In this document: one piece after another, positions 52,234 to 64,000 of the stretch
Numbering within the stretch: the stretch's first letter is position 1
How the letters are laid out: each line of letters begins with the position of its first letter
DNA from: Phaeodactylum tricornutum CCAP 1055/1
Taxonomy: Eukaryota; Bacillariophyta; Bacillariophyceae; Surirellales; Neidiaceae
NCBI RefSeq assembly: GCF_000150955.2
Contig: NC_011674.1
Location: forward strand, 971,083 to 1,035,082
Direction: 5' to 3'
DNA length: 64,000 bases
Made by a program: the position numbers and the translations under genes
Notes under the pieces: model-generated
Database searches by the model: none
What the model was told of the DNA's origin: nothing
The model's input: the letters and a program-made list of their open reading frames with translations, nothing else

Positions 52234-53622
52234 TTATTCATCCATGAGTCTCGGAATCAAATTGACCTTGGGAGAGGCACTGAACCAAAGATAGTCAGCT
52301 ACTTTAGTCTGGTAAGCTAGTGTATCTGGACCGGTGCCAATTTCTAGTCGTAGATACCGACTGGCGGAAAGCGTTTCTCTTGCAGTCGGATTTAGTAGAA
52401 TCGTCGTAACGGCGTTCATACCAACCTGATTCGAAGGACCACTGAAATGTGCACAAACTCGCGGAATTCGGCCATTGTAGCCACCGAGGTACCGAAGATC
52501 TGGTGTGGGGGCTACTGCGAGGACGAGTGAGTCCAAATTTTGTGTTCCGTACTTGGCCATGACGGTAGCGCCAGCTTCGTGTACCAATATACGTTCGGCG
52601 AAAAAGGCCCCTGCCGTATCCTTGTCGTTGAGTGGCTGAAAATCCTTGAACAGCGAACGATCCGTATAGAGTTTGAACCTAGGTTCGTTTGTCAGAGAAA
52701 TAAAACCTTCTGGATCAACCACATATTGCGATCGGCGATTCGGGTCTACAAATTGGATTCCACGATCCCGAACTGTCGCAATATCTTCGGCTTCTGGGGC
52801 CATTGCGATCAGATCCAAAGAATTCTGGCGAGACAGCTGTAATATTGGTTGATACAGCCTGATAATTTCTTCGCTCACTCCTGTTCTCGACAAGGTATTA
52901 GCGAGATCCGCCTCCGATCCTCCGTTGACGTACTGATCCAGAGACGCTTGTGCGGAGAAGGGCGCAAACCAAAGAGCGACAGCCGTCTTCTTGCCTTTGC
53001 GGGGTTGAATTACTGCCTGAACCAAGCTCGTAGCAAGCTCAACATCCGTTACCGTGGTATCGCTTGGAAGACCGAGACAAACAAACGACGAATATCCCGG
53101 CCCTCCCCGGACATTATCGTTTTGAGAACCTTTCACGGAAGAAAATGCGTCGATGGTTCCAAAAACAGCTTTGTTCAGCATATTGTTCAGATTAACCGTA
53201 TCGATGAGAACAGCTTCTTTGTTTGTTCCTGAGCCTTGCCCTAGTCCTTTAAGAATCGAAGCTTCCTTTCGATTGTTGAAAGAGAGCAGTGTTGGGGGGA
53301 TTGTGGAGTCCACGAGATACGCAGTCGGTCGTATTCCGGGTACGTACACCGACGGTGGGTTGTTCGCCGCTCCGGAACGGAGTGGAGATATTGCCGTGGC
53401 GGAAGTCAGTGCAAAAGAGGCCAGTATGCCACGGCGAGTGTTTTCGCTGGCTTTTTCCTCTTCGTTGCAGCCCTGGCTTGCCTTTGCGGATCCTGTAACT
53501 GCTCGGGAATGAACCATGGGTGTCGCTTGCAAGGGCTGAAAGGCTCCGATTCGAGGAATGGACACTGAAAGCCACCCAAGTATTCCAAGATAGACAGCGT
53601 CCATCATAGAATTCCTCCTCAT
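52234..53622 (-). CDS. Plastid, probably thylakoid-lumen protein of unknown function (possibly ChaN-like)
   Basis: 462 residues. The N-terminus has a signal peptide ending IGAF-QPL (plastid motif). After about 35 residues a twin-arginine-like signal TRRGILASFALTSATAIS follows, which together suggest two-step delivery to the thylakoid lumen. The mature part contains ILVHEAGATVMAKYG and LDSLVLAVAPTPDLRYLGGYNGRIPRV, reminiscent of the ChaN/DUF399 family, plus a conserved GIQFVDPNRRSQYVVDPEGF region. The ChaN link is weak by eye. There is a close mobile element 170 nt upstream. The start at 53622 is chosen, with ATGs a few codons further in possible. Confidence 0.6.
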   Translation of the reverse strand: MRRNSMMDAVYLGILGWLSVSIPRIGAFQPLQATPMVHSRAVTGSAKASQGCNEEEKASENTRRGILASFALTSATAISPLRSGAANNPPSVYVPGIRPTAYLVDSTIPPTLLSFNNRKEASILKGLGQGSGTNKEAVLIDTVNLNNMLNKAVFGTIDAFSSVKGSQNDNVRGGPGYSSFVCLGLPSDTTVTDVELATSLVQAVIQPRKGKKTAVALWFAPFSAQASLDQYVNGGSEADLANTLSRTGVSEEIIRLYQPILQLSRQNSLDLIAMAPEAEDIATVRDRGIQFVDPNRRSQYVVDPEGFISLTNEPRFKLYTDRSLFKDFQPLNDKDTAGAFFAERILVHEAGATVMAKYGTQNLDSLVLAVAPTPDLRYLGGYNGRIPRVCAHFSGPSNQVGMNAVTTILLNPTARETLSASRYLRLEIGTGPDTLAYQTKVADYLWFSASPKVNLIPRLMDE

Positions 53623-53793
53623 ATGCTCTCGGAGACTGCTCTGTTATGGTTCCTACTGTCTATTCTTTACAGTTCGTAGAACATAAACTGAATTTGGATC
53701 TGAAAGGCAGGATGGCATGCCGCTCCCCGCGGCGTCAGAGGAAAATGCCAACGACTGGCAAGATGGGTCTCCTCTATATTCACAGTCAGCTAG

Positions 53794-56015
53794 TGTCTAT
53801 TCTACTGTGCAAACTCCTCAATTGAGCAGGATTTTTCCTCAATTGAGGGGAGCAAAAAACGGACGGAAAGCAAGACCGTAGTGTGTACAATATGTACCGG
53901 GGGCTACTAGAACAAAACCAAAAACTAAGGTACACTTTGAACTCCTATACCTAATACAAATTATGGTCGAAAATAAAAGAACATACATAAACCTGTACTT
54001 CAGTGGGTGAATAAACTCAAGGCCTTTGCATGCAACTCAAGTACGTAAAAGTGGAAATTAACGGGTTACAGACCGTGTACATTATGCATGTGACGTACGT
54101 AGCACATCTTGCCTTTCTTTGTACCGCAAATCCACACCTCTTTCCCCCCTATACTCTCATCCAAACATTGAGAACAACAGGATGTAGTCTTTTGTGTACA
54201 CACACAACATTGACCCTGTAGCAGATAGTTCGTTTCAGTTCCGTCTTTTTGTTTTCTTGTTGCTGTTTTGATGACACCAATAAATCGCAATCCTACTCTC
54301 ATCAATTCCTCTGCTGCAACCACTGAAGCAAAGTAGCTATCTGCACATACAATGCGGTCAGACATTGTCCATGGCTGTACAAGATACTTGAGAATCATTG
54401 TACCATGAAGAGTTTCTCTGTGACGCTCTCCATTAAGTGCTTCTTCTGCTGCTGTCTTTACCAACCTTAGCCGAAGCATGATGCTGCTGCGACCGCAAGC
54501 AGTGTTATGAATCTCACACCCGTTCTCCGGCTTTCTATCAATTGCAACATACATGGGGAGTCCATGATTTATCCAATGGCCACCCTGTCCATACCACCGT
54601 GATATTGATTCGTCGACGCAAAGTAGATCAGATGGTCTGAACCGATTTTCACGGTGAGCATTAAATTGCTGAACAAAGCCATCTACCATAGTCCACCGAA
54701 CGCTTTCATTCCCCATTTCAGCAGACAAATGATCAGCTCGTTTGGTCCAGCGAAGGCACTGCCACACTTTGTCAAATCTTTCCCGAGACATCCCAGTCCT
54801 ACCAAAAGCTGGAGCCGGCACATACTTTGAGGTGCTCCTTGTCGACCAAAGGCTTGCCCTTGCCGAAAACTCGAAGCGTGTGGCAAGGATTAATACACCA
54901 AAGAACTTTAACATCTCTCCATTTGATATTTCTTTTTGACCCATAGAAGAAAGAACTTTACTTGTCTCATCTGACATTGTATTGAGGGTTGTAGTTGGAA
55001 ACATCATTAGAAAGTAATCCAGACAAGAAACGGATCTTCGTGAATCAGTACCTTGACCAAAAATTTCACCAACAGTATTTTTAACACCCCACGGCCGGAA
55101 GGAGACCTCTCCATTCATTTGACATTTAGTTGCATTGCTGTCGTTATACCAGAATGTTCCGTGGGCATCCGCATCGGGCGCTACATCTCGGTCCGTGGGT
55201 TGATCTTCAGAGTCCAACCCAGTATTTTCATCTCCATTGTTGTTACCCGTCACTTGAGCTAATCCTGGATGGATATCCATAGGTATGGGGGGTATAGGAG
55301 TGTACGGAATGGGAGTTTGTGTCTCCTTGGGATAATCAGAGTGTGCTTCCTCTCGCGGAAGCAAAGATAACGATGCTTGGTCAAGGTTTGATATTTCACA
55401 ATTGCGATTGGTGATATTAAGCGCAGAAGGCGCAAATAATTTCACTCTTCGAATATTCAATGTTTTCACCCTGAAAGTTCCTCCCCCGAGATAATATTGT
55501 GCCTTTATGTTGGTTGTCGACCGATTGGTTCGAAAGCCTGGAGTCACCAGCACTTCTGAAATCACTCCTTGCACCATTTTTGAATTCCACAAGGCACCAT
55601 ATCTACGACGACATTCGGCTTCGCAGGTGACAGCAGTGGCCTTAGTTTCGACCCAACTACCCACTTCTCTCCGGGGATCATTTCTGGTTGTCATGGTTAT
55701 TTTATTGTAGAGTTGTAACAACCTTAATAGTCAAACAAATGCTCAAGATGGGCAAGCAGAACACGTTTAAAGGTTTTTAAAAAATTGAAAAAATTACTAA
55801 ATTTTTCGTTCGGTATCCTGAACAATCAAAGCATGCTCGGACTCTATTGAAATTGAAAGCATGCCACCTCTATCCCATAACACAAAAAAACACGCTGAAT
55901 ACGATAGAAATAACGGCAAACGTTGCAACCGACAGCTTTGTTGTGATTACTTCGGTTGAAAATGCACCTCAATTGAGGAGTAGCTCCTCAATTGAGGTGC
56001 ACAGTAGAATAGACA
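53794..56015. mobile_element. piggyBac-like DNA transposon E1 (internally deleted), CTAG target site
   Basis: 2222 bp with perfect 18-bp terminal inverted repeats TGTCTATTCTACTGTGCA (53794-53811) and its complement (55998-56015). CTAG flanks both ends (53790-53793 and 56016-56019). Subterminal palindromes CCTCAATTGAGG occur near both ends. It encodes one transposase on the minus strand, which has lost part of its catalytic core. Base composition is more AT-rich than neighbouring genes. Confidence 0.93.
54066..55694 (-). CDS. piggyBac-like transposase (DDE_Tnp_1_7), internally deleted, third catalytic Asp lost
   Basis: 542 residues; the start is set by alignment of MTTRNDPRREVGSWVETKA to the E2 protein (MSEGDSRRKIGAQVTAKAC). 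An N-terminal domain of unknown type (RRYGALWNSKMVQGVISEV; TLNIRRVKLF) is followed by the DDE_Tnp_1_7 core. The first Asp is in LLCVDESISRWYGQGG and the second in RIVCADSYFASVVAAEELM. Right after FIGVIKTATR the protein jumps to KDGTETNYLLQG, skipping about 210 residues that in E2 hold the third Asp (GMIDRHNRSRQD). The frame is preserved. A Cys/His zinc-binding C-terminal domain (CCVCTQKTTSCCSQC, CYVRHMHNVHG) remains. Probably inactive for cutting, but may still bind DNA. Confidence 0.9.
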   Translation of the reverse strand: MTTRNDPRREVGSWVETKATAVTCEAECRRRYGALWNSKMVQGVISEVLVTPGFRTNRSTTNIKAQYYLGGGTFRVKTLNIRRVKLFAPSALNITNRNCEISNLDQASLSLLPREEAHSDYPKETQTPIPYTPIPPIPMDIHPGLAQVTGNNNGDENTGLDSEDQPTDRDVAPDADAHGTFWYNDSNATKCQMNGEVSFRPWGVKNTVGEIFGQGTDSRRSVSCLDYFLMMFPTTTLNTMSDETSKVLSSMGQKEISNGEMLKFFGVLILATRFEFSARASLWSTRSTSKYVPAPAFGRTGMSRERFDKVWQCLRWTKRADHLSAEMGNESVRWTMVDGFVQQFNAHRENRFRPSDLLCVDESISRWYGQGGHWINHGLPMYVAIDRKPENGCEIHNTACGRSSIMLRLRLVKTAAEEALNGERHRETLHGTMILKYLVQPWTMSDRIVCADSYFASVVAAEELMRVGLRFIGVIKTATRKQKDGTETNYLLQGQCCVCTQKTTSCCSQCLDESIGGKEVWICGTKKGKMCYVRHMHNVHGL

Positions 56016-56019
56016 CTAG

Positions 56020-58811
56020 TGTCTAGTCTACCGGCCGTTGTCCTAGATATAGGACATCATTTTGTCCTATATATAGGACAAGAAAAGAAGCAAAAACATA
56101 GAGTAATCCTGTAGCGGTAGTACAAAATTCTACACAAAAATGGAATTTGACCATGGTGATCAAGAATCACACTTTTACTATTTAAAATAGGACATGCATA
56201 CATAAAACTTGTACCATATTGTTCGTTAGGCGCCGTGACAGGTAGCCATGTGGTTTGCATAGCACAGCTTCCCCTTGGTGGTATAACAAACCCACGGTTC
56301 TCTGGAGTGAGGTGTTTCTTCATCTTTGCACACTGAGCAAACATATGTTGTCTTCTTGGAACACACCAAGCATCGTCCTTGTAGTCTATTGCTGCTAAAA
56401 CTACCGTCTTTGTTCTTTCTTCTTTTTTTGGTTGGTGTTAGGTGTGCGTACAGGCCACTTCTTGGTTCTCCCGTAGTCCTTGAAAGTGCTGGGCTGTCAT
56501 TGTCCAAATTTGCCTCCACGAAAACTCTGCGACTTCCAACATTGTCGTATTGGTTATCCACTAGCTCCTCAGCCAAGGCAGTGTAGAAGTCTTTCTGCTT
56601 TTCTTCTCTCCCGTTAGCTCTTCCTATTCCTGTACACAGACTGTAGGCCAACCAAGTGTCAACAACAATCATTCCAAATATTGAGAGGTTAACCCTTGTC
56701 AACCAATTTGTTGTACCCAACTTTCGTTCAAGCATCAGTGTATCCTGACGACTTCGATTGTGCCTGTCAATCATCCCACATGCAGAATAGTATAATTCCG
56801 CTGCTTTGGGCTGTGGAATGATAATTTCCAGCCTCTCTGGATCTGCATCCGGAGATTGGTCAATCTGTCTCCAACGATAGCGTACGTAGGGCTTGCCTGC
56901 ATCCAGACTGGAAGCACTCGACACAAAATATCGGCGGTCCCTGTCCATCCACACAAAAGCCAACAGAGTGCTATAATTTGTATCAACATCTCGCATCACA
57001 AGCCCTCTCCGTTCGCCTCTCTGGTTCAGCTCTAAAGTCGAAAGGTATCTCATCTGATATTGTTTTGTTGCTGTTTTTACAACTCCAATAAATCTCAAAC
57101 CATGTCGCTGCAACTCCATAGCTGTACCGACAGATGAAAAATACGAGTCAGCGCAAACAATCCGATCCGTCCACCACCAAGGAAGGACAAGCTCTTTGAG
57201 GATCTTTGTTCCATGCAGCAACTGTTCATTGTAGTCCCCATCATCTTCTGCTGCTGTCTTACCCTTTACAACCTTCAATCGAAGCATGATACCCGAACAG
57301 CCGCATGCGGCATTTTGAATCTCACAACCGTTTTCGGGCTTTCGGTCAATAGCCACATAATTGGGGAGTCCATGATTTATCCATTCCCCCCCTTGTCCAT
57401 ACCATCGCGACATTGATTCATCCACACAAATAAGATGAGATGGTTTGAAAGTATTGGCTCGATGATTGTTGTATCTTTCAACAAAATCATCGACAAGTTG
57501 CCACCGAAACGTATGGGAGCTCATACCTTCCGGCCGTTCAGGACACTGGTTGCTCCATCGGATATTTCGCCAAAGATCATCAAAGCGCTGCCGCGACATT
57601 CCTGTTTTTCCGAATGCAGGGGCAGGAATGTATTTTGACGGCGCGGTTGTGGACCACAATTGCGATCGACTGCTAAATTCAAATTTTGTCGCAAGAATTA
57701 GAATGCCAAAGAATCGAAGCAGCTCTCCTGTTGACATGCAGTGCTTGTTCTGTTGGGCAAGCTGCACATTTGTTAGCTGACACATGGCGCTCAGTTGGTC
57801 GGGTTGAAACATGAGAAGAAAATATTGCAGCCGCGAATATTTTCCATCAATGTCAGAGTCTGGACCAAGAAGGTCGCCAATTGGTGTATTGATGCCAAAC
57901 TGCTTACTTTGGACACTGCCATTTATATCAATCAATGTAGCTTGCTCGTCAGCATACCACTTTGTTTCATGAGCCATTACAAAGGAAGCGTCTTCAACAC
58001 CCCAAACCTGCGTGGCTACTTGTGCGGTAGGTCCTGCTACCTGTTCCCCCGCAGCTATTCCAATTTCCATCATCGGTTGTGCTGGAAATTCCAATTCTTC
58101 ATCAGGAGAAGTCTCCTGCAAGACCGCTTCTCCTTCCTCTTGCTCTGGAACGGCCAAATCTGTGTCTGCGTTGTCTACTGCCGGTATTGGTGCTGCGGGA
58201 CTGGATGGTACTGTCGACTGGTCCGGTTTGAAGAGTTTGACGCTACGGATGTTCAGAGTGCTCCGCTTGACTGATCCTCCACCAATATCAAAGTCAGCAG
58301 TAATGAAGGTTGATACACGGTTGTTTGGCGCCTTTCTGGTATTGTTGACCTCCACAACAGTCCCCACAACGACCTTGGTGGTCCTCAAAGCACCGTATCG
58401 CCGAGCACACTCACTCAAATGGACAACATGACAGGCCTTCGCTGTCACCTGAGCACCAATCTTTCGGCGGGAATCCCCTTCTGACATAATTTTTAATGAG
58501 CTTGGTGTAAGTTGTGTATAAAAGGTTGACTATGAGGGATGCAATGGACACTACATTGACTCGGGAATGGCTCAGTTCGGGTCGAAAAAAAAAGCAAATA
58601 TATTTTGAGTAACCCTAGCATTGACGACAAATGCTCTTAAAATGTTAAGAAATAGAGCATGCCATGCTCTCCCAAGACATTTCAGAGCATGGGGAACACG
58701 ATGGTAGCATTTGTTTTAAACAGATCTGATTATAATGTATAGTTCTAGAGGTTTGGAAAATGTCCTTTATTGAGGATGGGTCCTCAATATAGGACAGAAG
58801 TAGACTAGACA
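56020..58811. mobile_element. piggyBac-like DNA transposon E2 (apparently intact), CTAG target site
   Basis: 2792 bp with perfect 12-bp terminal inverted repeats TGTCTAGTCTAC (56020-56031) and GTAGACTAGACA (58800-58811). It is flanked by CTAG, sharing the left copy (56016-56019) with E1; the right copy is 58812-58815. Subterminal palindromes are different from E1, e.g. TTGTCCTATATATAGGACAA at about 56073-56092. It encodes a full-length transposase on the minus strand. Confidence 0.92.
56226..58487 (-). CDS. piggyBac-like transposase (DDE_Tnp_1_7), full length
   Basis: 753 residues. Layout: an N-terminal domain (RRYGALRTTKVVVGTVVEV; STLNIRSVKLFKP) and an acidic linker, then the DDE_Tnp_1_7 core, where LRFFGILILATKFEFSSRSQ precedes the first Asp in LICVDESMSRWYGQGG. 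The second Asp is in DRIVCADSYFSSVGTAMELQ and the third in YYSACGMIDRHNRSRQDT. The C-terminus is a Cys/His domain (CLVCSKKTTYVCSVCKDE, CYANHMATCHG), the zinc-binding end piece of piggyBac transposases. All three catalytic Asp positions are present and the frame is uninterrupted, so the gene may be active. It would cut and paste the element; whether E1 can be moved in trans depends on shared ends TGTCTA(T/G)TCTAC. Confidence 0.92.
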   Translation of the reverse strand: MSEGDSRRKIGAQVTAKACHVVHLSECARRYGALRTTKVVVGTVVEVNNTRKAPNNRVSTFITADFDIGGGSVKRSTLNIRSVKLFKPDQSTVPSSPAAPIPAVDNADTDLAVPEQEEGEAVLQETSPDEELEFPAQPMMEIGIAAGEQVAGPTAQVATQVWGVEDASFVMAHETKWYADEQATLIDINGSVQSKQFGINTPIGDLLGPDSDIDGKYSRLQYFLLMFQPDQLSAMCQLTNVQLAQQNKHCMSTGELLRFFGILILATKFEFSSRSQLWSTTAPSKYIPAPAFGKTGMSRQRFDDLWRNIRWSNQCPERPEGMSSHTFRWQLVDDFVERYNNHRANTFKPSHLICVDESMSRWYGQGGEWINHGLPNYVAIDRKPENGCEIQNAACGCSGIMLRLKVVKGKTAAEDDGDYNEQLLHGTKILKELVLPWWWTDRIVCADSYFSSVGTAMELQRHGLRFIGVVKTATKQYQMRYLSTLELNQRGERRGLVMRDVDTNYSTLLAFVWMDRDRRYFVSSASSLDAGKPYVRYRWRQIDQSPDADPERLEIIIPQPKAAELYYSACGMIDRHNRSRQDTLMLERKLGTTNWLTRVNLSIFGMIVVDTWLAYSLCTGIGRANGREEKQKDFYTALAEELVDNQYDNVGSRRVFVEANLDNDSPALSRTTGEPRSGLYAHLTPTKKRRKNKDGSFSSNRLQGRCLVCSKKTTYVCSVCKDEETPHSREPWVCYTTKGKLCYANHMATCHGA

Positions 58812-58887
58812 CTAGTCTGCCGGCCGTTGTCCTAGATATAGGACATCAGTTTGTCCTATATGTAGGACAAGAAAAGAAGCAAAAACA
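58812..58887 (+). repeat. Isolated extra copy of the E2 left end
   Basis: About 76 bp nearly identical (about 4 differences) to E2 56023-56098: the CTAGTCT, CCGGCCGTTG and TTGTCCTATAT-type palindromes, ending AAGCAAAAACATA. It lacks the outermost TGT of the E2 terminus and starts directly at the CTAG. No matching right end is visible in the following kilobase, so it is a truncated or solo end of a third, related element. Confidence 0.85.
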
Positions 58888-59762
58888 TAAAGTTAGAAAA
58901 ACCCTACGACAAGCATTTCGGGGTTCCTTATCCCTTTATCTTGGGTTTATGCGTATAAGTCTTTGTTTTACGTCTTTTTATCGTATCTACTATCCTTTGG
59001 TCCCACAGACACGTTTTAGCCCGTTATCGTTGCAGTTTTCTAGTTTATCAGACCCACTCGTTCTACGCTGAGGTAACGGGATCAAAGGTAGGGTGATTCG
59101 TTGTGTTTTGAGTGTTTGAGTGATCGCCAAGTCCGATAGTGCCTGGGGAGGTAAAGCTAAATACCTGGCTCTTCATGTCGTTGTTGAGTCGCCGAAGCCT
59201 GCAGAGGCCTGGAATATACTGCCAGTTTCTCGTAATGGTCCATGTGGTAGACATGTTGATCGGTAACTGGGTTTCGTATCCGTCTAACGGTCTGAAACGA
59301 GGCAAAATCTCCATGGTGGGACGCTTCCATGGATCTCTTCATCTACCGAAGAAGGTGCATTGCACAAGAATTTATTGTTTGCTAAAAGCTCGGATCCAAG
59401 CTTTATCCATGTGTGGATGATAAGTAGTTTGTTTGTATGGAACATTTACTTATACAGCAACAATTATCGGACTTGTACCAAACGGTAATCGTGGATCCTC
59501 CACTCTGATAGATATCAGCCAAATATCTCGTATTATGGGTTGCGACATGAAAATGGTGTTCGTCGCGTTTTATTGAAATGGTTCTCAAACGGTATTCAAT
59601 ATCGATATCACTTATATGGTATTTATGTGGTGTTCACATGTGATGTTATCAGTGATCAATAATTCTCGTGTTCACGTGGTGCAGAAAGAACACTGAATGT
59701 TGTCGAACCAGCTTACGAAGTTTTATGAAATTTAAGACAGATGAAGAAGACGAAAGTTGACC
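58888..59762 (+). other. 5' region of the copia element, LTR not defined
   Basis: About 875 nt between the solo piggyBac end and the copia ATG. It probably contains the 5' LTR, primer-binding site and leader. Without a 3' LTR (lost at the telomere) no LTR boundary can be fixed by comparison. A near direct repeat GTGTTCAC(A/G)TG occurs near 59631-59641 and 59669-59679. No other gene is seen. Confidence 0.4.
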
Positions 59763-62700
59763 ATGGCAGCTGCTTTAGCTCAAGTTCGAAATGCTTTACA
59801 AGCAATTGGCATTGTTGATGTCGAACAACGCGATGCTATCACGGATTCGATTACGTCTATGCATGTTTTCGAGATTGCAACGGATGATTTCATTAAGGAC
59901 ATGTGTAAGAACATCCGTCGTCCCGGGGGTACGCTTCCGAATCCTAACGCAGAACAACCTGGAGCCCCGGCAATGATTCCTCGCAATGGTGTAGCAATTT
60001 CACCTACTGCGGAGGAGCGTCTTGTGTTGTTGGCTTACTATGTTCGTCACCTTAAGCGCACTTCTCGGCCTTATCCGGCTCAGTTTAATGCGGCGCGTAT
60101 TTTCTCGATGATCGAGATCAAGAAGCGTGAGAAGGAAGACAAAGAGTTAGCAAAAGACCTTGTTGCTCCTGGACAAATTGAAGACCTGAAGAAGATCCGT
60201 GATGCCTTTGAAAATATTGCGGAATATTTGCTTCAAATTCGAGGAACAACGGGAGTTCCATTGGCTTATGTCATTTGTGAAGACAAAGAAGTTCCTGAAG
60301 GTCCGGATAACAACTATCAAGATGCGTTTGAAGAAATGATAGCGCGATGTCCGCATGAAGAAGAGTCCTATGCAGCAGATAATGCTCAAGTGTGGTCTAT
60401 TATTCGCGTTTGTACTCATGGTGGTCCTACTTGGAGCTGGGTGTCGGCTTATGCTCGAGCTCGTAATGGTCGTGCGGCTTGGTTTGCACTTCGCTCGCAT
60501 TATTTGGGACCGACTAATCAGTCAAAGATTATGACGCATGCTGAAGGTGATCTTGAGTCAAAGTTCTATAACGGAGAGCGTCGTAACTTTACTTTCGAAC
60601 GTTTTGCTGAGATTCATCAGCAAGCTCATACAGATTTGGAAGAGTTTGGAGAGCCATTGACAGAGGCTGCAAAAGTTCGGAAATTTTTGAAACGGATTCA
60701 GGCATCGTTTCTCAATTCTGCAATTGCCACTGTTTGTGCTAACCCATCTTTGAAAAATGATTTTGAAGCCACAGTGAATTTCCTCAGTGAGTTTATTGAA
60801 GAACCGAATCAAGCTCAGCTTCGAAATATTTCGTCAGGTCGATCAGGTCGCGGTCGAGGACGAGGTAGAGGATCAGGTCGTGGTAATAAAGGACGCGGTG
60901 GTCGCGGAGATATAGGTGTTTTCAACAAAGGTTCTACCAAGGGCATGGTGGATAAGTATTATACCTTTGATGAATACAAGAGTATGAATGCTGAACAGAA
61001 GCGTCACTTGCATACATTACGTCAAGAAGCTGGTGGTAAACGCAATGCTTCTACTGTTGATTCTCAAGAAAAGGAGGATGACAAGAAATCGAAGACGAGT
61101 CGTGATGATACGAGCTCGCTTACTTCGAAGTCGTCGGCAGGTCGCAATATGTCGCAGAGAAATTCGAATATGTCAGTGGTATCAACACGTTTTATCTCTA
61201 TACAGTCACTCAAGAGTGCATTTATATCACACGCGGAGTTAGATTCTCATGCGGATACTTGTTGCGTTGGAAAGAACGCTTATATATTTCACGAAACCTC
61301 TCGAACGGTTGATGTTTCTGCATTTTTATCTACATTAGGACAAGCCCGGTCTGTACCAATTGTCTCTGCTGCTCTTGCATATGATCATCCTTACACCTAT
61401 GAGACTTTTATTTTAATTATTCATCAGGCCTTGCACTTTCCTACCATGGAACATAATTTGTTAAATCCGAATCAGCTCCGGTTAAACGATGTGCAGGTCT
61501 ATGATTGTCCAAGATTTTTACTTGAAAACCCCACGGATTTGTCACATTCGATTTATTTCCCGAACGACAATCTTAAATTGCATCTGCAATTAGATGGTGT
61601 GATTTCGTATTTGCCAGTGCGAAAGCCGACTCCGGAGGAGTTTCAAAATTTTCACAAGTTGACTCTTACCTATGACAATCCGATTTGGGATCCTTATTCG
61701 ACGGATTTTACTCGTCAGGAGGAGAAGTATACCGATAGCAAAGGTATTTTGGTAACGAGACAATCCGGTCATGCAAACATTCAAATGATTTCGTCACACG
61801 AAAGTACAGTATCAGTTGTGTTGTCTAGTATTTCGGTGTCACTCGATGAACAACAGTATACCGATAGCAAAGGTATTTTGGTAACGAGACAATCCGGTCA
61901 TGCAAACATTCAAATGATTTCGTCACACGAAAGTACAGTATCAGTTGTGTTGTCTAGTATTTCGGTGTCACTCGATGAACAACAGTATACCGATAGCAAA
62001 GGTATTTTGGTAACGAGACAATCCGGTCATGCAAACATTCAAATGATTTCGTCACACGAAAGTACAGTATCAGTTGTGTTGTCTAGTATTTCGGTGTCAC
62101 TCGATGAACAACATTTTGTCGAAGCACTTGAGAAGACATGTCTGGTGAGTGTTGCTCAGTCGTCGAATTACAGGTACAGAGTTACTCCGGAGGAGTTAGC
62201 CAGACGATGGAATATCGGTTTATCTGCAGCGAAACGAACTTTATTGGCTACGACTCAGAGAGGAGTCAAGGATATTGCCAGTCGAACTCTAACACAGAGA
62301 GTCAAGCCAACTACGAGTCAACTCAGATACCGACATCTCCGTACAAGTGTGTATACGGATACAATGTTTGCTTGTGTAATGTCATTGAGCGGAAACACAT
62401 GTGCCCAGATTTACGTTAACGATCTTGATTGGACACGTGCTTATGCTATGAAGTCAAAAGGTAATGCCCATGAGACATTGGATTTGTTGTTTCACCGAGA
62501 AGGTGTTCCAGCCGAGATTATTTCGGATGGCGCGAAAGAATTGGTGCAGGGTGAATTCAGACGGAAGGTTCGTGCGGCAGGATCTCATGCTAGGCAGATT
62601 GAACCTTACTCACCGTGGTTAAATCGAGCTGAGACTGCAATCAGGGCATTGAAACGCATGACTAACATGGCTATGAAAAAGTCATCTGCGCCGTTATATT

Positions 62701-63734
62701 TGTGGGATTATTGCCTGGAGTTGCAAAGTATGATTCGATCGTCAATTGCACATAACATTTATGCATTGAACGACGATGTACCGAACACGGCAGTGTCAGG
62801 TGATACAACGGATATCAGTCACTTATGTGAATTTGCTTGGTATGATTGGATATGGTATTTGGACCCAGTCGACTTTCCGATAGACAAACGGAATCTAGGT
62901 CGCTGGCTTGGTCCTGCGCATGACATTGGTGATGTTATGTGTGCACGTATACTTGTTCGAAGTGGTCAAGTTGTATCTCGAACTTCTTACTCGCCACTTT
63001 CTACAGCTGATCTTAATTCCAGGGAGGTGCAATTAGACAAGTCCGCATTTGATGCAACTTTGAGCTATAATAACTGTGATGATGCCATTGCCCCTGTGTT
63101 TCCTCAGGAGGTTAATGTATTTTGCACTTATTCAGATGATTCGACAGGGGACGAGCTGCCAATGCCTCAAGCGGACGAGTTGGATCACGAAGCTTTTGAT
63201 GAATACCTTGATGCTCAAGTTGTGTTACCGTACAAGGACGTTGCTACCACTGGAACAGTTATTGCGCGTAAAAAGGATCGCGATGGTAACTTGGTAGGGA
63301 AATCACATCCCAATCCTGTTTTGGATACGAGAGTTATGGAAGTCCAGTTCCCAGATGGTAATGTGCAGGAATTTGCTGCTAACGTTATTGCGGAACACTT
63401 ATATTCGCAGGTGGATGATGAAGGACGCCGGTTTCGAATAGTAGATGAGATCATTGATCACAAGATGGATGGATCGGCAGTCGCACCTGACGATATGTAC
63501 TATACAGACAAGCATGGTGTGAAACGTATACGACGAACCACTAAAGGTTGGGAGTTGTTGTTGCAATGGATGGACGGATCCACAACTTGGTTTGATCTTA
63601 AAGATCTGAACCAATCGAATCCAATTGAAGTCGCCGAATATGCCGTTGCTAACAAAGTGCTTCATGAGCCAGCTTTTGCTTGGTGGGTACCAGACGTATT
63701 GCAGAAACGTGATCGTATTATTTCAGCGGTATAG
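59763..63734 (+). CDS. Ty1/copia (CoDi-type) gag-protease-integrase polyprotein, truncated
   Basis: 1323 residues from the ATG at 59763 to a TAG at 63732-63734. Gag-like region residues 1-385, with an RG-rich RNA-binding tract at about 357-383 instead of a CCHC knuckle. Aspartic protease motif AELDSHADTCCVG at about 491-503 (diatom-type DSHADT). Three identical 43-residue tandem repeats at about 656-784. Integrase: ELARRWNIGLSAAKRTLLAT, then catalytic D in VYTDTMFA (about 864), D in EIISDGAKE (about 920) and E in LNRAETAIRALKR (about 955). Then KPHGVKRIRRTTKGW-type sequence and the connection region. Codon use is AT-rich, unlike the neighbouring cellular genes. The reverse transcriptase and RNase H are absent. 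Confidence 0.93.
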   Translation: MAAALAQVRNALQAIGIVDVEQRDAITDSITSMHVFEIATDDFIKDMCKNIRRPGGTLPNPNAEQPGAPAMIPRNGVAISPTAEERLVLLAYYVRHLKRTSRPYPAQFNAARIFSMIEIKKREKEDKELAKDLVAPGQIEDLKKIRDAFENIAEYLLQIRGTTGVPLAYVICEDKEVPEGPDNNYQDAFEEMIARCPHEEESYAADNAQVWSIIRVCTHGGPTWSWVSAYARARNGRAAWFALRSHYLGPTNQSKIMTHAEGDLESKFYNGERRNFTFERFAEIHQQAHTDLEEFGEPLTEAAKVRKFLKRIQASFLNSAIATVCANPSLKNDFEATVNFLSEFIEEPNQAQLRNISSGRSGRGRGRGRGSGRGNKGRGGRGDIGVFNKGSTKGMVDKYYTFDEYKSMNAEQKRHLHTLRQEAGGKRNASTVDSQEKEDDKKSKTSRDDTSSLTSKSSAGRNMSQRNSNMSVVSTRFISIQSLKSAFISHAELDSHADTCCVGKNAYIFHETSRTVDVSAFLSTLGQARSVPIVSAALAYDHPYTYETFILIIHQALHFPTMEHNLLNPNQLRLNDVQVYDCPRFLLENPTDLSHSIYFPNDNLKLHLQLDGVISYLPVRKPTPEEFQNFHKLTLTYDNPIWDPYSTDFTRQEEKYTDSKGILVTRQSGHANIQMISSHESTVSVVLSSISVSLDEQQYTDSKGILVTRQSGHANIQMISSHESTVSVVLSSISVSLDEQQYTDSKGILVTRQSGHANIQMISSHESTVSVVLSSISVSLDEQHFVEALEKTCLVSVAQSSNYRYRVTPEELARRWNIGLSAAKRTLLATTQRGVKDIASRTLTQRVKPTTSQLRYRHLRTSVYTDTMFACVMSLSGNTCAQIYVNDLDWTRAYAMKSKGNAHETLDLLFHREGVPAEIISDGAKELVQGEFRRKVRAAGSHARQIEPYSPWLNRAETAIRALKRMTNMAMKKSSAPLYLWDYCLELQSMIRSSIAHNIYALNDDVPNTAVSGDTTDISHLCEFAWYDWIWYLDPVDFPIDKRNLGRWLGPAHDIGDVMCARILVRSGQVVSRTSYSPLSTADLNSREVQLDKSAFDATLSYNNCDDAIAPVFPQEVNVFCTYSDDSTGDELPMPQADELDHEAFDEYLDAQVVLPYKDVATTGTVIARKKDRDGNLVGKSHPNPVLDTRVMEVQFPDGNVQEFAANVIAEHLYSQVDDEGRRFRIVDEIIDHKMDGSAVAPDDMYYTDKHGVKRIRRTTKGWELLLQWMDGSTTWFDLKDLNQSNPIEVAEYAVANKVLHEPAFAWWVPDVLQKRDRIISAV
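61728..62114 (+). repeat. Three identical 129-bp in-frame tandem repeats
   Basis: Units start at 61728, 61857 and 61986; each encodes YTDSKGILVTRQSGHANIQM and continues for 43 residues in all. The three copies are identical in the bases I compared. The array lies between protease and integrase and keeps the frame. Confidence 0.95.
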
Positions 63735-63827
63735 ACAAGATACCTTAAAAGGACTCATAAGTTTGGTATTTGTATGCCAAAATCGGTCAAGCAAGCTCTC
63801 GAGATTGACCGAGATACTAACACTTTG
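63735..63827 (+). pseudogene. Remnant first 31 codons of the copia reverse-transcriptase region
   Basis: Directly after the TAG, in the same frame, 31 codons read RTHKFGICMPKSVKQALEID, the usual start of the copia RT domain. They end at the first telomere repeat. The stop codon sits where related elements usually have Lys or Ser. Confidence 0.85.
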
Positions 63828-64000
63828 TTAGGGTTAGGGTTAGGGTTAGGGTTAGGGTTAGGGTTAGGGTTAGGGTTAGGGTTAGGGTTAGGGTTAGGGT
63901 TAGGGTTAGGGTTAGGGTTAGGGTTAGGGTTAGGGTTAGGGTTAGGGTTAGGGTTAGGGTTAGGGTTAGGGTTAGGGTTAGGGTTAGGGTTAGGGTTAGG
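63828..64000 (+). repeat. Telomere, (TTAGGG)n
   Basis: At least 28 perfect TTAGGG units running off the right edge, G-rich strand toward the 3' end as expected for a right-hand chromosome terminus. No degenerate or subtelomeric repeat precedes it; it starts directly in copia sequence (CACTTTG|TTAGGG). Confidence 0.98.

Follow-up and report, generated by a model that had tools for sequence, protein, structure and literature searches.

Adjoining piggyBac-superfamily transposons in the diatom Phaeodactylum tricornutum very probably use CTAG as their main target word

Targeting of TTAA is treated as a signature of piggyBac transposons: what is then to be made of piggyBac-like elements that are bounded by another word? 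The question is raised by a stretch of 64 kb from the genome of the diatom Phaeodactylum tricornutum CCAP 1055/1 (bases 971083-1035082 of contig NC_011674.1, here C6; the genome comprises 27.45 Mb in 88 contigs), which we call the window, which reaches the contig end, and whose positions are used below unless another contig is named. Two piggyBac-like elements, E1 and E2, lie side by side in it, and an earlier interpretation made from the letters of the window (the sequence-only reading) had them bounded by CTAG at 53790, 56016 and 58812, all three of which the letters confirm. E1 (53794..56015, minus strand; 2,230 bp counting both CTAGs), as delimited by its inverted repeat and by comparison with a relative on contig C44, carries an internal deletion, and E2 (56020..58811, minus strand; 2,800 bp counting both CTAGs) is full-length; the left target copy of E1 occupies 53790..53793, a single CTAG at 56016..56019 is common to both elements, and a third one (58812..58815) lies to the right of E2. 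E1 and E2 are very probably cut-and-paste DNA transposons with a transposase of the piggyBac (DDE_Tnp_1_7) superfamily and with CTAG as the main target word. The evidence for this is insertion at CTAG, with one copy of the word in empty sites and two in filled ones, together with TGTC termini, subterminal palindromes, a superfamily transposase and near-identical copies of E2.

How general is the CTAG flank? A pattern search of the genome in which CTAG was included gave 46 exact matches, and the CTAG-free end motif TGTCTAKTCTAC was searched next, which removes the bias of the former pattern. It matched exactly 61 times in the 27.45-Mb genome, against one match of the reversed-pattern control. 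Fifteen of these matches have no preceding CTAG and each was read by eye: nine of them run into element sequence and six do not. With the flanks tabulated genome-wide in this manner, as the sequence-only reading had suggested, CTAG stands directly before 46 of the 55 exact ends that were judged by eye to be element-like, and TTAA before none of them (nor before any of the 61 exact motifs). Since CTAG occurs only about once per 590 bases (109 times in the window) and the control gave a single match, its presence before 46 of the 61 motifs is not due to chance. Furthermore, both ends could be identified in 25 copies, of which 21 are flanked by CTAG on either side, no matching non-CTAG duplication was found among these 25, and the rule is kept across families whose transposase identity to E2 goes down to about 45-49%. 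No strong motif that would widen the target consensus outside CTAG appeared in 54 flanks, among which many copies are represented by both sides (0.18 bit per position at most).

The sites into which such elements inserted provide the second line of evidence. For 18 single two-ended copies, and for the E1/E2 cluster taken as a whole, the 70 bp on either side were joined through one CTAG, and the same genome was searched with these 19 queries, 40 of 265 and 40 of 127 candidates being scored. For four of the 19, uninterrupted copies were found at other places, in which a single CTAG corresponds to the two of the filled copy, so that the comparison with empty sites advocated in the sequence-only reading came out in favour of CTAG on repeats within a single genome. 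The empty site of the copy at C1:2510880 is present in three places at 99% and in one at 76%, that of C12:655922 in 38 spanning places at 87-97%, and that of C26:429438 in 12 full-length places at 99%, in one at 93% and in shorter ones; the copy at C30:10784 sits in the same repeat as that of C26, in a different CTAG of it, and its empty site is matched at 89-92% over the full length. Twelve empty places were fetched, and their aligned letters have a single CTAG against the two of the filled copy.

These data bear on two other explanations. According to the first, the elements would be ordinary piggyBac transposons of the TTAA type whose flanks have mutated, which have used rare non-canonical sites or which have been mis-assembled. 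In its favour, the scattered non-TTAA duplications of animal surveys have been taken as possible mutations (PMC10813416, PMC10140906), and canonical piggyBac in HEK-293 cells inserted at CTAG in nine of 23,417 cases, the others including 23,026 TTAA, 110 CTAA and 100 TTAG (PMC3499496). However, CTAG at 46 of 55 ends and TTAA at none, across diverged families and unrelated flanks, together with empty sites that carry CTAG too, leave this explanation a practically negligible probability, the consistency of flanks and empty sites excluding mutated or rare-site TTAA-type elements. According to the second explanation, CTAG belongs to the terminal inverted repeat and the elements truly duplicate some other target outside it, and CTAG does abut most intact ends, as a repeat would. 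Nevertheless, this is very improbable: the empty sites already hold one CTAG (a part of the terminal repeat is ruled out by the four of them), E1 and E2 have a single CTAG in common instead of one each plus a spacer, and the two-ended copies have, by eye, no matching duplication outside CTAG.

Is the enzyme a piggyBac transposase at all? Judged by its profile matches, it is a member of the superfamily. The open reading frame (ORF) of E2 (56226..58487, minus strand; 753 amino acids) matches PF13843 (DDE_Tnp_1_7) with E 2.9e-38 and 132.5 bits (cut-off 22.4), and that of E1 (54066..55721, minus strand; 551 amino acids from TTG, the first ATG being residue 10, at 55694) with E 3.3e-31 and 109.3 bits over profile positions 4-240 of 349. 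A search of PDB with a single sequence gave no match at E up to 1. A full profile, for which E2 and E1 were combined with L013 (a copy with 49% identity) and with both pieces of the C44 relative, had two matches only at E up to 10, piggyBat (9c0f, 7.5e-11) and piggyBac (6x67, 0.0052), and a profile of the catalytic domain had the same two (4.2e-12 and 2.3e-4, respectively) plus four weaker unrelated ones. Residue D356 of E2 falls on the first catalytic Asp of piggyBat in a strong stretch of the HMMER alignment. A Cys/His pattern is conserved at the C-terminus of E1, E2, L013 and a piece of the C44 relative, and no separate domain model matched it. Pfam searches with E2, L013 and the C44 piece returned DDE_Tnp_1_7, weakly DDE_Tnp_1 and one chance-level Peptidase_C39. 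At the N-terminus of E2, a stretch of residues (about 10-80, 58250-58460) is conserved between families, has no Pfam match and contains several strands in a low-confidence model; it is possibly an extra domain.

A further explanation concerns the length of the duplication. If the duplicated unit were TA, at an obligatory C-TA-G, the element would read GTGTC...GACAC, with a geometry like that of Tc1 elements, and filled and empty sites would then look just as they do after a duplication of CTAG, the two being indistinguishable by sequence alone, which is a point against taking the 4-bp duplication as settled. The ciliate PiggyMac, whose cuts keep only the central TA (PMC3408717), offers a parallel. 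The explanation is nonetheless improbable, given that the transposase belongs to the piggyBac superfamily, that piggyBac joins its ends 4 bp apart (PMC7351741), that the PiggyMac cuts are 4-bp staggered as well (PMC3408717) and that the ORFs matched no Tc1-type family in the Pfam searches; besides, the target preference stays CTAG in any case.

Several other observations weigh against CTAG-targeting piggyBac-superfamily transposons. Nine of the 55 element-like ends are preceded by other words (GTAG, AGAG, CTTG, TAAG, TTAG, CCCT, TAGT, GCTG and TCTG), and four of the 25 two-ended copies have no CTAG on one or both sides, namely those on C11 (CTAG/CTAC), at C12:494128 (AGAG/CAAG), at C16:176464 (CCCT/CTAG) and on C44 (TTAG/CTAG, with CTTAG as the joint to its neighbour); we assume that these flanks result from decay or rearrangement. 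Only four of the 19 joined-flank queries gave empty copies, the other 15, which do not count as negative, having had no spanning match among the scored candidates, and among the 12 fetched empty places L103 differs in having two additional bases next to each CTAG. As for the protein, D447 and D574 of E2 fall on the second and third piggyBat Asp only in a weak HMMER stretch (domain E 4.1), and an AlphaFold2 model of E2 on five rows is poor (mean predicted local distance difference test 39.9). Finally, all the evidence consists of sequence, and it comes from one genome. On balance, CTAG as the main word of a piggyBac-superfamily lineage stands as the very probable reading.

The ends of the elements depart from those of piggyBac too. 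E1 has a perfect terminal inverted repeat of 22 bp and E2 one of 17 bp, both counted with CTAG: in E1, 53790..53811 (plus strand) is 100% complementary to 55998..56019 (minus strand), which includes the shared CTAG, and in E2, 56015..56031 (plus strand), which holds a second, inner CTAG at 56023-56026, pairs at 100% with 58800..58816 (minus strand). The usual CCC ends, from which the sequence-only reading had these differ and which in canonical piggyBac may also read CC[C/T]T, are replaced by TGTC tips in E1, in E2 and in 49 of the 50 tips of the two-ended copies (the remaining one is TCTC), with the proviso that those copies were found via a TGTC-based motif, which would miss other ends, whereas E1 and E2 were not chosen by it. 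Because two hallmarks are lacking, TTAA and the CCC ends, we do not class the elements with canonical piggyBac; they seem to operate as piggyBac does, with a different main word.

Inside the tips, each end bears subterminal palindromes: two of the CTCAATTGAG type at the left end of E1 (53813..53850) and two of CCTCAATTGAGG at its right end (55963..56001), GTCCTAGATATAGGAC and GTCCTATATATAGGAC at the left end of E2 (56038..56081) and further ones at its right end (58761..58796). By hand count, the palindromes of both elements are centred on bp 28.5 at the left end and on bp 24.5 at the right one. A dimer of the piggyBac C-terminal domain (CRD) binds a palindrome at bp 17-33 (PMC7351741), and the palindromes of E1 and E2, as read from their letters, would thus sit where that domain binds. 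Within the subterminal 40 bp, the position and the outer letters of the palindrome stay similar across families while its core differs by eye: CAATTG in E1, CAGCTG at one end of the copies with TGTCTATTCTACCGGCCC tips, CTTAAG in those with TGTCTGGGC tips and CATATG in the copy at C12:461397. Such differing cores would suit a family-specific binding of the transposase. By analogy with piggyBac biochemistry, the enzyme would free the 3' ends, form hairpins through the 4-nt flank and reopen them with a CTAG overhang, the freed ends would attack a new CTAG at points of its two strands that are 4 bp apart, and the palindromes would bind dimers of the C-terminal Cys-rich domain.

How did the elements come to stand end to end? 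At 49% protein identity, E1 and E2 are members of different families, and their complete ends meet at exactly one CTAG. To the right of E2 lies E3 (58816..58893, minus strand), the remnant of a second left end of the E2 family, cut off by sequence that runs into a copia-like ORF; the stretch 58812-58893 is 95% identical to positions 8-89 of the E2 left end and starts at the inner CTAG, so that the CTAG to the right of E2 is also the inner CTAG of E3. As insertions leave CTAG at both ends and the E2 family carries an inner CTAG, later elements can land against or inside earlier ones; the E1/E2 joint would be such a landing, and the E2/E3 joint probably is another. The sequence-only reading had invoked two independent insertions at one CTAG, which holds as the simplest reading of the E1/E2 joint. 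A simple nested insertion of E2 into the inner CTAG of E3 should have left seven more E3 bases to the left of E2, and these are missing, a discrepancy that tells against it; the loss of one 7-bp repeat unit (CTAGTGT), or recombination, would account for them. Recombination or gene conversion between ends could even have produced the whole cluster in place of separate insertions at CTAG: E2 meets E3 at the inner CTAG of the latter, with the first 7 bp of E3 gone, which a single insertion would not leave, and the short repeats in the E2 tip could slip. We consider it unlikely, as E1 and E2 are of different families and have complete ends that meet at exactly one CTAG, and similar joints exist on C44 (CTTAG) and on C12 (CTAGCTAG, 671918-671925). 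A rough estimate, with some 47,000 CTAG sites in the genome (scaled from the density of the window), gives about 0.1 chance sharings among a few tens of elements. The word CTAGCTAG also flanks three single ends on the outside (C12:660852, C21:6717 and C13:294244) and is absent from the 109 CTAGs of the window; it could be either a preferred target or the scar of an imprecise excision.

Have these elements moved recently? Over ungapped aligned columns, E2 is 99.0-99.7% identical to five full-length copies (C1:83371, C1:2510880, C14:721846 and those on C22 and C26) and 94-95% identical to two more (C21 and C30); in-frame stops are absent from E2 and from the C14 and C22 copies, and there is one in the C26 copy. 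From the near-identical copies and the open frames, recent mobility of the E2 family is inferred. E1, in turn, matches the C44 relative in two blocks at about 97% identity, between which about 630 bp (a multiple of three) are missing and which overlap by 4 bp at the deletion joint (54254..54257). By this in-frame deletion E1 has lost the segment of the third catalytic Asp, so it could move only with transposase supplied in trans. Two related copies, L024 (C7) and L051 (C12), run into long stretches of N, and their open frames of 2043 and 897 amino acids are probably due to these stretches, read as X. No convincing pair of inverted ends was found for the relics on C32 and C18 (the latter has one CTAG-TGTC end), nor any end of the tested form for the relic at C12:435700-439000, and a search of viral contigs gave four pattern matches and no real relative.

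The E1/E2 pair lies about 5 kb from a perfect GTTAGG telomere repeat, which occupies 63827-64000 at the end of the contig. Crowding towards chromosome ends was seen as well, with nine of 37 loci less than 15 kb from a contig end, where 3.4% would be expected (binomial p 3e-6); the count covers the numbered contigs apart from C44, C45, C50, C53 and several relics, adjacent copies are counted separately, and the p value is uncorrected for a general build-up of transposons near ends. Between E3 and the telomere, the copia-like polyprotein ORF extends over 59757-63734, and the telomere repeat begins about 90 bp past its stop, so that a copia-like retroelement seems to be capped by the telomere; inside this ORF, a unit of 129 bp is repeated three times, in frame and at 100% (61726-62113). 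On the other side, E1 directly adjoins a gene of host type (52234-53622) whose product has a ChaN-like haem-binding domain (PF04187). Rfam and tRNA scans of the 64-kb window gave no matches.

What could have changed the word? CTAG and TTAA differ at precisely two bases, 0 and 3. The piggyBac structure has Y283 stacked on base 3 of the target, base 3 bonded to base 0 and, in the excision hairpin, N440 in contact with the third base, and TTAA targeting has been tied to the bond between the base-0 T and the base-3 A (PMC7351741). We aligned three proteins globally, with three gap settings, against a provisional piggyBac fragment, and in all nine runs the omega loop was about eight residues longer and an Ala (Ala379 in E2) stood at the Y283 position, the rest of the alignments being variable. 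At the N440 position, in a weak HMMER stretch, piggyBat has Asn and the CTAG lineage Tyr (Tyr567 in E2). The outer T-A of TTAA would have become C-G with the central TA kept, bases 0 and 3 may still bond, and the Ala, the Tyr and the longer omega loop would be the cause of the change. A tentative scenario, to which we give slightly less than an even chance, is that the diatom lineage switched its main word from TTAA to CTAG, thereby making a rare off-site the rule, by way of a remodelled omega loop (about eight additional residues, Ala in place of the stacking Tyr and Tyr in place of the Asn in contact with the third base), and that, as its own ends carry CTAG, it is prone to line up directly against other elements. 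This scenario has points against it: the omega-loop reading depends on a provisional piggyBac fragment and on low-scoring alignments of a stretch that HMMER left unaligned, and the base-0/base-3 bond has been argued to be impossible once base 0 is changed (PMC7351741). No discussion of the double change to C and G was found in the available text of that paper.

Elements of this type are not new to the P. tricornutum literature. One weakly related to piggyBac, with a homologue in T. pseudonana, has been described (PMC2806351), a PiggyBac row tabulated for two annotations reads 65 and 116 (PMC5859163), and piggyBac-related elements appear in three further papers (PMC4504042, PMC9998398, PMC4247016); the repeats of the first two papers are probably the same elements as the ones described here. 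In the available text of these five accounts the target site is absent, and the two first mentioned give neither ends nor empty sites in theirs. Likewise, no element with CTAG as its main target was found in the literature searched, Repbase and most subscription literature being outside the search. New here is CTAG as the main word, its role as a rare site of the superfamily being already known. The distinct specificity that the sequence-only reading had supposed for the family is in this sense borne out, with the qualification that canonical piggyBac uses the same site rarely. A natural lineage with another palindrome and the same central TA indicates that re-specification of the target word is possible, and a handful of residues stand out as possible determinants. 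Such a lineage is a possible insertion tool with a different target and would allow a test of single-stranded target recognition, and for genome annotation it implies that searches requiring TTAA flanks would miss CTAG elements.

How do these elements compare with the known systems? By profile search, the closest solved structure is that of piggyBat from Myotis lucifugus (9c0f, E 7.5e-11), whose target is TTAA and which keeps the Asn at the N440 position where, in the weakly aligned stretch, the CTAG lineage has Tyr. With piggyBac from Trichoplusia ni (6x67, 6x68) they share a superfamily transposase, short inverted repeats, a 4-bp palindromic target with a central TA and subterminal palindromes near bp 17-33 (PMC7351741). 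They differ from it in having CTAG as the main word with TTAA unseen, TGTC instead of CCC termini, a very low sequence similarity, a longer omega loop, and Ala and Tyr at the positions of Y283 and N440, respectively (as aligned to the provisional fragment and to piggyBat). Since canonical piggyBac uses CTAG at a low rate, this word is within reach of the superfamily; in a mouse data set, TTAA accounted for 93% of the piggyBac insertions, and the rest included CTAA, TTAG and TAAA (PMC3983033). That the superfamily can leave TTAA is known from the ciliate PiggyMac and Tpb2, the former making 4-bp staggered cuts centred on TA (PMC3408717), although those are domesticated host enzymes, whereas in the present case it is mobile elements that retain a different 4-bp word. 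Non-TTAA duplications occur in animal piggyBac types as well, for example TATG in Crassostrea virginica, besides TTAG, CTAA and others, yet they are few and mostly taken as probable mutations (PMC10813416). In the diatom, by contrast, one palindromic word is common to dozens of ends and to several families, and it is present in the empty sites.

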